Below are positions 3,095 through 7,787 of a stretch of DNA of 24,666 bases, in pieces. Where the stretch lies: assembly GCA_016212295.1 (NCBI GenBank), contig JACRGO010000020.1, positions 1 through 24,666 of the forward strand, written 5' to 3'. Within the stretch, counting starts at the first letter, position 1. Each line of letters begins with the position of its first letter. The translations under genes and the position numbers were made by a program. The notes beneath the pieces were generated by a model. That model worked only from the letters and a program-made list of their open reading frames with translations. It did not search any database and was not told the DNA's origin. Origin of the DNA: Nitrospinota bacterium. GTDB taxonomy: Bacteria > Nitrospinota > Nitrospinia > JACRGO01.

Positions 3095-5110
3095 ATGCCA
3101 TGCAATAAAACTTTCCGCCCTTTCCGGACCGGCCTTTCCGGTTTTATCGTTTTGATTCTCTTCCTGTTTTTTTCCTGCCTGCCGGGAATGGCCTTGGCGG
3201 AATCGCCCGGCTCCGCGGCGGCGTTCCCTCTGGACGTCACCAGGATGAACCTGCAGGAACTGATGGCCGTCAAGATCACCTCAGTGTCGAAAAAGCCCCA
3301 GGCCATGTCCGAAACCGCGGCCGCCGTTTTTGTGATCACCCAGGAAGACATCCGAAGGTCCGGCGCCGCCTCCATCCCGGACGCCTTGCGCATGGTCCCC
3401 GGCATTCAGGTGGCCCACATCACCGCCAACCAATGGGCCATCTCCATGCGCGGTTTCAATAACGTGTATTCCAACAAGCTACTCGTCCTCATGGACGGAC
3501 GCAGCGTTTATTCGCCTCTGTTCGCCGGGGTTTATTGGGACGCCCAGGACACGCTCCTGGAGGACATCGAGCGCATCGAGGTCATTCGCGGCCCAGGGGC
3601 CTCAGTATGGGGCGCCAACGCGGTCAATGGGATCATCAATATCATCACGAAAAACGCCGGGGACACCCAGGGCGGCCTGGTTTCCGCGGGCGGAGGGACA
3701 GTGGAAAAGGGGTTCGGAGGGGTCCGCTACGGTGCAAGGGCCGGAGATACCGCCTTTTACCGGGTCTACGCCAAGTATTTTCAACGGGACGGCTTCGTGG
3801 ATGAAAACGGCAATAAAATGGACGACGATTGGGACGCGGCGCGGGCCGGGTTCCGCCTGGATTGGGGTTTGTCCGGAATAGACAGCCTCACGGCCCAGGG
3901 AGACGCGTACACCGGTTCGTCCTGGCAAAATATTTTCAGCTCGAGGGGAGGGGTCCGGGCCCTCTCCAAGGAAGAAATCGATCTCTCCGGAGGCGATTTC
4001 CTGGTTTGCTGGACACGGGAGTTTTCTCCCGCCTCCAGGACCGTCCTTCAGGCCTATTACGACAATACCGAACGAAGTGAGAATAACCTGGTTCAGAACC
4101 ACGACATCTTCGACCTGGACTTCCAGCACTATTACCGCTTGACGGAGCGCCAGGAGATCGTCTGGGGCCTGGGATACCGCATGACTCACGGTCTGGTTAA
4201 GAATTCGGAGGTGGTCTCCTATGATCCCGGTTCCCGGACCGACCACCTGTACAGCGCCTTTATACAGGACGAAATTGAATTATGGAAAAGTGGATTGCGT
4301 CTTACCCTCGGCTCCAAGTTCGAGCACAACGACTATTCCCAGTTTGAAATCCAGCCCACCGCCAGGCTCCTGTGGACCCCCCATGAGCATCATACCTTGT
4401 GGACCTCGGTTTCCCGCGCGGTCCGTTCGCCTTCCCGGACAGAGCACGATCTGACCCTGGCCACCCCCCGCCTGGTGATCACCGGAAACAGGAATTTTGA
4501 ATCCGAGGAGTTGACCGCATACGAGGCCGGTTACAGGGCCTTGCCAACGGACCATGTTTCCCTGGACGTCACGGCCTTTTTCAATAAATACGATAAACTG
4601 GCCGCGTTGGAATTGGGGAGTCCGGCCGGCGTTGTCCCCATGATCCTGGAGTACCGGAACGGCATGGAAGGGGAGACCAGCGGGGTGGAGGTTTTCGCGG
4701 GATGGAACGTGACGTCCCGGTGGGAATTGACCGCCGGATATTCTTATATTCAGATGAATATAAACGCCAGGGCGCCCATGGAAGCAGTGAAAAATCCGGC
4801 GGCAAGTTCCGGTTTTCTCGAGGGAAACACCCCAGTCAACCAGTTCCAGTTCCGGTCCTCCCTTGACCTTCCCTTTCACTTGGAATTCGACACTGCTGTT
4901 TTTTATGTGGACGACCTGTCGAGCCAGGAGGCGTCCGACTATGTCCGGGTTGACGCCAGGCTGGGATGGAAACCCATGGAAAACCTGGACGCCGGTCTGG
5001 TCTTTCAAAATCTCGCGGAAGGCCATCATAAGGAATTCAACGGTTCCAGCGGCACGGTCGGGACCGAGGTCCCGCGAAGCGTTTATGGAAAAATTTCATG
5101 GAGATTTTAA
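3095..5110 (+). CDS. TonB-dependent outer membrane receptor
   Basis: A 671-residue outer membrane beta-barrel for TonB/ExbBD-energised uptake; substrate unknown. A signal peptide covers about residues 1-35, with a hydrophobic core FIVLILFLFFSCL and cleavage after MALA. The mature N-terminus has LQELMAVKITSVSKKPQ and then the plug domain (VFVITQEDIRRSG, DALRMVPGIQV, MRGFNN, LVLMDGRSVYSPLF, IERIEVIRGPGASVWGANAVNGIINIITK, about residues 60-185). The remainder is barrel strands ending in a terminal Phe (SWRF), the BAM signal. ATG 3095 is chosen because GGAG lies 9 bases upstream (3082-3085); a TTG at 3080 would overlap that site. It heads a same-strand cluster with a YfiR-family protein and a sensor kinase, so it may take part in sensing as well as transport. 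Confidence 0.94.
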   Translation: MPCNKTFRPFRTGLSGFIVLILFLFFSCLPGMALAESPGSAAAFPLDVTRMNLQELMAVKITSVSKKPQAMSETAAAVFVITQEDIRRSGAASIPDALRMVPGIQVAHITANQWAISMRGFNNVYSNKLLVLMDGRSVYSPLFAGVYWDAQDTLLEDIERIEVIRGPGASVWGANAVNGIINIITKNAGDTQGGLVSAGGGTVEKGFGGVRYGARAGDTAFYRVYAKYFQRDGFVDENGNKMDDDWDAARAGFRLDWGLSGIDSLTAQGDAYTGSSWQNIFSSRGGVRALSKEEIDLSGGDFLVCWTREFSPASRTVLQAYYDNTERSENNLVQNHDIFDLDFQHYYRLTERQEIVWGLGYRMTHGLVKNSEVVSYDPGSRTDHLYSAFIQDEIELWKSGLRLTLGSKFEHNDYSQFEIQPTARLLWTPHEHHTLWTSVSRAVRSPSRTEHDLTLATPRLVITGNRNFESEELTAYEAGYRALPTDHVSLDVTAFFNKYDKLAALELGSPAGVVPMILEYRNGMEGETSGVEVFAGWNVTSRWELTAGYSYIQMNINARAPMEAVKNPAASSGFLEGNTPVNQFQFRSSLDLPFHLEFDTAVFYVDDLSSQEASDYVRVDARLGWKPMENLDAGLVFQNLAEGHHKEFNGSSGTVGTEVPRSVYGKISWRF

Positions 5111-5139
5111 TAAATCCAAGGCACAAAGGCGGGAGGTAG

Positions 5140-5734: not shown

Positions 5735-5786
5735 CTAATGACCATTGACCAATGACCCAATGACTAATGACCATTGACCAATGACC
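5735..5786. repeat. Two 23-bp direct repeats at the kinase start
   Basis: The 23-base unit CTAATGACCATTGACCAATGACC occurs at 5735-5757 and again at 5764-5786, 29 bases apart. The preceding stretch (5692-5722) repeats GTCATTGA-type words in the opposite sense, so the region can also pair as TCATTGAC/GTCAATGA hairpins. The second copy contains the ATG at 5781, and no Shine-Dalgarno sequence is apparent before it. Confidence 0.85.
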
Positions 5787-7787
5787 ACAATGACTACTTT
5801 CTCCTTTTTTAGAGACGCTTCCGTCAAGACGAAGCTTACCATCCTCTCCCTCCTGACAACGGGCACGGCCTTGCTCCTGTCCTCCCTTGCCTTCATGGCC
5901 CACGACCTCTACATCGAGTGGAACGAGTTGATAAAAACCCTTCAGGTCCAGGCCAGGACCCTGGGGTTCAACAGCAGGTCCGCCCTGGTCTTTAACGACC
6001 CCAAGTACGTGGCCTCGATTCTTTCAAGCTTGGCCCTGCAGGAAAATATAGCCGCGGCGGCGATATACGACAAGGACGGAAAATTGTTCGCCTCCCATCA
6101 AGACCTCCGCGCGGACGGGCCTCCTCCCCGGGAGGTCCCAAGGGAGAGGGGACACAAATACGAAAAGGGCCATCTGGTGATAGTCCAGGATATTGAATTG
6201 GACAACCAGGGCGTGGGCGCCATTTATATTAAATCGACCTTGAGGGAGATCAAGGAGCGGGTGGAGCTGTACCTCAAGGCCACGGCCGTGGTGCTCCTCG
6301 GGACCGGCCTGGTCTCCTTTTTTTTGTGGACAAGACTCCAAAGGATCATCACCAACCCCATTCAGCGTCTTGCCGGAAGCATCCGGGAGGTTTCGGAGAC
6401 CCAGGATTATTCCAAGCGGGTGGAAGGATGGGGCAAGGATGAAATGGGCGCCCTGATCCTGGGGTTCAATGAAATGCTGGGCCTGATCCAGGAGCGGGAC
6501 AAAAAACTTGAACAATACGCAAGAAATCTGGAAGGGATGGTGGCGGAAAGGACCGCGGAATTGCGGGAGGCGAACAGATCGCTGGAGGTCGAGTTGGAGA
6601 CGCGGAAACGGACGGAGGACGCCTTGAGGGAGGCCAAGGCGGCGGCGGAGGCCGCGAACAAGGCCAAATCCGAATTTCTGGCCAACATGAGCCACGAACT
6701 CCGGACCCCCATGAACGCGGTCCTCGGGTTCACGAATATCGTGCTGGCCTCCGGCCTGCCCCCGGAACATCGGGAAAAGCTGGCGATCGTCAAGGCGTCC
6801 GGGGAGTCCCTGCTCACCCTTATCAACGACCTGCTTGATTTTTCCAGGATCGAGGCCGGAAAACTGGAATTGCGCCAAATGGATTTCAGCCTCCGCGGGA
6901 CCGTGGAGGAGACCGCCTACGCCCACGGGGTTTCCGCCAGGGGAAAGGGTCTCGGATTTTCGGTATCCATCGGCGAGGACATTCCCAAATACCTGGCCGG
7001 GGATCCGGCCCGGCTGCGGCAGATCCTCCACAATCTTATAGGGAACGCCGTCAAGTTCACGGAAAAGGGGGAAATCCTTCTGAAGGCGGATCTGGACTCC
7101 TTGGAAAAGGGCCTCGCCGTGGTCCATTTCCTCGTGAAGGACACGGGCATAGGCGTCCCCAGGGATTTCCAGAAAAAGATTTTTGACCGGTTCACCCAGG
7201 CCGACGGGGCCAGCACGCGGAGGTATGGAGGCACGGGCCTTGGGACGACCATCTCCAAGCAGATTGTGGAAATGATGGGCGGAAAGATATGGCTGGAGAG
7301 CGAACCCGGAAAGGGGAGCGAATTCCATTTCAGCATCCCCTTCGCCATGATGGAAAGAGAGAAAAGGACCGAGGAAAGGCAAACCGCCCCCATGCCGGCG
7401 GCGCCGGGGCGGCTCCTCAATGTCCTGATCGCGGAGGACGATCCCCATAACCTGAAACTGGCCCGGATGCTCCTGGAAAGGCTCGGCCACCGGGCGGATC
7501 AGGCGGACAATGGAAGAGAGGCGGTGGAGAAGTGGCGGGACGGGAGTTTTGACTTGATCCTGATGGATGTGCAGATGCCGGAAATGGACGGCTACGCGGC
7601 CACGAGAAAAATCCGGGAAGTGGAATAGGCCGGGGGCGGGGGAAAGCGCGTCCCCATCATCGCCCTCACGGCCCGCGCCATGAAAGGAGACAGGGAAAAA
7701 TGCCTGAACGCCGGAATGGATGAATATATCACCAAGCCTATCCTCATGGAGGACATGGCAAGGAAGATAGCCGCTTTATTCCCATAG
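5781..7787 (+). pseudogene. CHASE8-HAMP hybrid histidine kinase interrupted by TAG
   Basis: The frame runs 615 codons to a TAG at 7626-7628, then continues without another stop for 52 codons to a TAG at 7785-7787. Order of parts: TM1 about residues 19-40; periplasmic CHASE8-type sensor (QARTLGFNSRSALVFNDP..., about 45-160); TM2 about 167-186; HAMP; coiled coil; HisKA with phospho-acceptor His305 in SHELRTP; HATPase with N box (GNAVKF), DTGIG at 454 and GGTGLG; receiver with acidic AEDD and phospho-acceptor Asp596 (LMDVQMPEMDG). The stop removes the conserved Thr (ALTARAM) and Lys (YITKP) of the receiver, which lie in the downstream in-frame piece. Translated as is, it gives a kinase with a half receiver domain. 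Start could be ATG 5781 or 5790; neither has a clear ribosome site. It follows the YfiR-like gene, its likely input partner. Confidence 0.88.

Follow-up and report, generated by a model that had tools for sequence, protein, structure and literature searches.

In the YfiBNR system of Pseudomonas aeruginosa, the periplasmic protein YfiR represses the membrane-bound sensor YfiN, which combines a CHASE8/PAS-HAMP input with a GGDEF output, and YfiB serves as outer-membrane partner. Phe162 of YfiR and the 'AAVVF' motif of YfiN have been proposed as contact sites in the passages of Malone et al. (2012) concerned with this interaction (PMC3375315). According to the same paper, divergent Yfi systems are mostly devoid of YfiB, sensor histidine kinases often stand in for their GGDEF domain, and the YfiR-YfiN core is termed modular; TonB goes unmentioned there (PMC3375315). 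Three NCBIfam families, NF053590, NF053591 and NF053592, describe the same three gene types as those found in the locus considered here and are modelled as a linked set. The receptor family among them owes its name to TOL_0244 of Thalassolituus oleivorans, which the authors of the respective section liken to OmpS of Alcanivorax dieselolei, reported to be needed for alkane detection (PMC6304351), although the substrate of the receptor described below need not be an alkane. Signals that cross the envelope and start from a TonB receptor in the outer membrane, as is also proposed here, are known from FecA-type transducers, which work with FecR and an ECF sigma factor. A link between such a receptor and YfiR was not found in the open-licence papers, as judged by titles, abstracts and selected passages.

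The window, i.e. the whole stretch of 24,666 nucleotides from a Nitrospinota bacterium that was analysed, contains a receptor, a YfiR-family protein and a membrane kinase encoded next to each other on the plus strand. An earlier note on this DNA had described this arrangement, and gene map and Pfam assignments bear it out. The features are as follows:

3095..5110, plus strand: TonB-dependent outer-membrane receptor of the TOL_0244 family (Pfam PF07715 and PF00593; NCBIfam NF053590)
5140..5685, plus strand: YfiR/HmsC-like periplasmic protein (DUF4154) of 181 aa with predicted N-terminal signal helix (PF13689; NF053591; structure model)
5737..5787, no strand: heptad tandem repeat AATGACC, about 7 copies (Tandem Repeats Finder)
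5781..7628, plus strand: CHASE8-HAMP-HisKA-HATPase kinase, its receiver shortened by a TAG at 7626-7628 (Pfam; NF053592; ectodomain model)
7629..7787, plus strand: stranded receiver remainder, in frame past the TAG, with the Thr and Lys positions (translation; identity to relatives)

The receptor is recognised by the Pfam profiles for the plug (78.6 bits) and the TonB beta-barrel (103 bits) and, with 696.4 bits against NF053590 at a curated cut-off of 645, belongs to the TOL_0244 receptor family. Its ATG at 3095, preceded by GGAG, is preferred over the TTG at 3080 of the mechanical open reading frame, and its stop lies at 5110. Directly upstream, at 2260-2966 of the window, Pfam detects a HEPN and nucleotidyltransferase (MNT) pair, a typical toxin-antitoxin arrangement. 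The YfiR-like protein is a clear member of PF13689 (DUF4154; 141.4 bits, cut-off 24.9), while its 120.6 bits against NF053591, the TOL_0243 YfiR-like family, fall slightly below the cut-off of 125, which is exceeded by the other two YfiR-like copies of the same genome. Its structure model (pLDDT 89.9) is matched by Foldseek to the solved YfiR of P. aeruginosa (4yn7) with a TM-score of 0.82 by target length.

For the kinase, whose start is placed at 5781 or at 5790, the latter agreeing better with relatives, the profile check suggested by the earlier note gave a clear match: CHASE8 (PF17152) covers residues 52-150 with 59.5 bits at a cut-off of 27. The ectodomain model (pLDDT 91.9) displays a PAS-like domain flanked by two long helices and matches the periplasmic domains of WalK and LapD type. 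HAMP, HisKA, HATPase_c and a partial Response_reg complete the Pfam architecture, and the score against NF053592, the YfiR-associated kinase family, is 190.9 bits, slightly under the cut-off of 194. Hence, within the linked NCBIfam set, the receptor of the window passes and the other two proteins come out slightly short. The CHASE8-HAMP sensor had been predicted to be joined to HisKA-HATPase-REC instead of GGDEF. These domains were all found, but the receiver is incomplete and the frame ends at 7628 instead of 7787: an in-frame TAG (7626-7628), located in the loop ahead of receiver strand four, terminates the product after 615 residues, so that residues 548-613 cover only positions 1-66 of the 111 positions of the Pfam receiver profile. 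The arrangement of the three genes is real and conserved, and it has in large part been recognised before (NCBIfam; PMC3375315).

Compared with YfiBNR of P. aeruginosa, the locus shares a protein of YfiR fold and a sensor of CHASE8/PAS-HAMP type, and the putative contact residues are conserved. The putative YfiN-binding Phe162 of P. aeruginosa YfiR corresponds to Phe155 of the window protein, a residue shared by 37 of 40 relatives, and the 'AAVVF' site of YfiN reads SALVF in the window kinase, with Phe71 being invariant (42/42). As these residues are conserved, YfiR-type repression of the ectodomain is likely to be kept, a step argued by homology to YfiBNR. Unlike YfiBNR, the locus has a histidine kinase as output, no adjacent yfiB, and a TonB receptor beside the pair. 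It thus departs from a complete YfiBNR in the adjacent YfiB, the GGDEF output and the four YfiR cysteines. A gene for an OmpA/Pal-type YfiB lipoprotein was not found adjacent to the cassette, the nearest OmpA-domain gene seen in the window lying 10 kb off. The latter (18238-18999) encodes a lipoprotein-like protein that contains a long stretch of prolines and was rejected as YfiB since it does not adjoin the cassette. From FecA-type systems, the locus differs by a receptor without STN signalling domain (Pfam reports plug and barrel only) and by the absence of adjacent FecR or ECF sigma genes among those seen. The receptor gene is flanked by the HEPN-MNT pair on one side and by the genes for YfiR-like protein and kinase on the other, and FecA/FecR-type transduction was discarded.

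Gene order in relatives was mapped in 60 genomes of the class, the source genome included, using the YfiR-like profile, CHASE8 and the receptor family, and counting genes within 3 kb as neighbours. The source genome itself harbours three YfiR-like and three CHASE8 genes, all of them paired. Across all 60 genomes, 61 YfiR-like genes were found. CHASE8 lies near 44 of them and a receptor of the family near 50; both are close by in 34 cases, and at least one of the two in 60. A receptor without CHASE8 neighbour accompanies 16 of these genes, and for 10 CHASE8 is present but no family receptor was found within 3 kb. At the level of genomes, YfiR-like and CHASE8 genes occur together in 24 cases, a single one of the two is present in 1 and in 3, and neither in 32 (Fisher p = 2e-12, a value that is too optimistic as the genomes are related). 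The co-occurrence of DUF4154 with CHASE8 kinases and TonB receptors that the earlier note had suggested looking for is found in the class. Strong receptors of the family adjoin a YfiR-like gene in 47 of 51 cases, and weaker receptors in YfiR-bearing genomes do so in 7 of 61 among the matches listed. A contig scan with the YfiR-like protein returned five relatives, all Acidobacteria-type MAGs, and the order receptor-YfiR-CHASE8 is present in acidobacterial MAGs as well. The proposal would have fallen had the three genes not been neighbours in related genomes, and neighbours they are, Acidobacteria included. The spacing between yfiR and kinase usually amounts to -35 to +30 bp, with a 4-bp overlap being frequent, and the 95 bp of the window are near the long end. 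In genus g14 (L050, L052, L055, L056, L095, L096), no CHASE8 gene adjoins the YfiR-like gene and its receptor, the latter at times present in tandem, and most of these genomes carry long CHASE8 ORFs (866-894 aa) at other sites.

We consider it fairly probable (roughly 0.6) that the three genes represent one instance of a widespread cassette for envelope signalling, in which the YfiR-like protein represses the CHASE8 kinase and the receptor is most likely the input. The periplasmic YfiR-like protein would bind the membrane-proximal, PAS-like CHASE8 ectodomain and thereby hold the dimeric sensor in one state. An event at the outer membrane, for which ligand binding to the TonB receptor or transport through it is the most likely candidate, would then alter the amount of YfiR-like protein that is free for binding, and this change would be passed on through HAMP to autophosphorylation of HisKA (His305). 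From there, the phosphate would travel via the receiver to a response regulator encoded away from the kinase. With the receiver interrupted in the window copy, the phosphate would need to be transferred directly to another receiver, unless the TAG is an assembly error. Of the YfiBNR-like relay envisaged earlier, the YfiR-YfiN-like core with histidine kinase, and with a TonB receptor encoded beside it, is upheld by gene order, co-occurrence, fold and putative contact residues, whereas a complete phosphotransfer chain in this copy is not, the receiver being cut by a stop. It is gene linkage that points to the receptor as the input relieving YfiR repression, and its near-obligate nature makes the receptor a plausible equivalent of YfiB. 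A more far-reaching proposal, which we put forward tentatively and at somewhat less than even odds, is that TonB receptors are the true outer-membrane input of YfiB-less YfiR systems, with a ligand-dependent contact to YfiR setting the CHASE8 kinase free. This would constitute a second general TonB route to gene regulation or c-di-GMP, without FecR and ECF sigma factor.

The same linkage might, however, be due to co-regulation, with the receptor being mere cargo: the kinase would then sense the envelope state or a periplasmic ligand via YfiR and control receptor expression. Sensor kinases are often encoded beside transporters under their control, which is in favour of this explanation. In addition, TOL_0244 of Thalassolituus is itself induced sevenfold on the n-C28 alkane, as given in the corresponding section of PMC6304351, and a weak match of the YfiR fold to single-domain 'substrate-binding proteins' of Rhodothermus (Foldseek 6k1x, E 7e-06) raises the possibility of ligand binding by the YfiR-like protein itself. 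Against this stands that the pairing of receptor and YfiR persists for the 16 of 61 genes without adjacent CHASE8 kinase, an observation more readily explained by a physical pair of receptor and YfiR than by co-regulation of a kinase with its target, and we regard a cargo receptor as rather unlikely. Far less probable still is control of the kinase by the disulfide state of the YfiR-like protein, as the earlier note had also suggested. P. aeruginosa YfiR is stabilised by the disulfides Cys71-Cys110 and Cys145-Cys152, and the former pair changes with redox state, as described in the relevant part of PMC4655355; the equivalents of Cys71 and Cys110 are both kept in 16 of 40 relatives, always together. 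In the window protein, however, Trp65 takes the position of Cys71, no Cys is present near the positions of Cys145 and Cys152, and only the Cys110 equivalent, Cys103, is retained of the four. Cys103 and Cys109 are six residues apart, along and just past a predicted strand. Redox control in the manner of P. aeruginosa is hence not supported for this protein.

A different question is whether the window copy is decaying or inactive, which is possible, if on the doubtful side. Besides the amber stop, the AATGACC repeat fills the gap between yfiR and kinase, where relatives mostly have coupled genes, and overlaps the start codon of the kinase. With a stop in the receiver and the kinase start inside a tandem repeat, the copy may be impaired. 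Readthrough of the TAG by pyrrolysine was rejected as unlikely, since no pyrrolysyl-tRNA synthetase is found over the cut-off in the genome (best PylS match 20.3 bits vs. 178). Moreover, the receptor match of a sister module in the same genome (L043, G000:C148) contains two stops, TGA and TAA. On the other hand, the HisKA and HATPase domains of the window kinase are intact and score strongly, and a receiver is present in only 21 of 47 linked CHASE8 proteins, indicating that a kinase without receiver can work. Furthermore, the sequence past the stop can be read in frame up to 7784, includes DEYITKPI and is still 40-53% identical to the receiver ends of relatives; the stop is therefore recent or an assembly error, and the assembly of the source genome consists of 237 contigs. 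Either a truncation of the receiver in this copy or an assembly error would account for the TAG. Downstream of the kinase, a 23-nt inverted repeat (7898-7920 / 8080-8102; 96% complementary, 159 nt between the arms) is found, which possibly represents a small mobile or repeat element.

Being common in the class and present in Acidobacteria, with receptor and YfiR-like gene almost inseparable, the cassette is of interest beyond this locus. The window adds one more copy of a known system, and the role of the receptor is the question worth pursuing. If the receptor indeed drives release of YfiR, the cassette would enable many uncultured bacteria to sense substrates in a way that the papers found do not describe.

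Concerning outputs, the 47 linked CHASE8 proteins carry HAMP (47), HATPase_c (46), HisKA (39), a receiver (Response_reg; 21) and Hpt (3), and GGDEF is absent from the 22 families found on them. As the window kinase likewise has HisKA, HATPase_c and Response_reg, a direct diguanylate cyclase output was rejected. Neither a response regulator nor a REC-GGDEF-EAL partner is encoded beside the kinase within the window. In several relatives, response regulators of LuxR type (L060, L074, L078, L083, L086, L094) or HD type (L063, L067) are encoded downstream. The acidobacterial loci L037, L039, L040 and L041 encode, directly after the kinase, a receiver protein and a REC-GGDEF-EAL protein (7572-10027 of the L037 stretch), which links these versions of the cassette to c-di-GMP. 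In some relatives, the phosphorelay thus probably acts on c-di-GMP turnover again, the REC-GGDEF-EAL protein being encoded after the kinase. The REC-GGDEF-EAL protein of L037, the one scanned with Pfam, additionally possesses a PAS domain.
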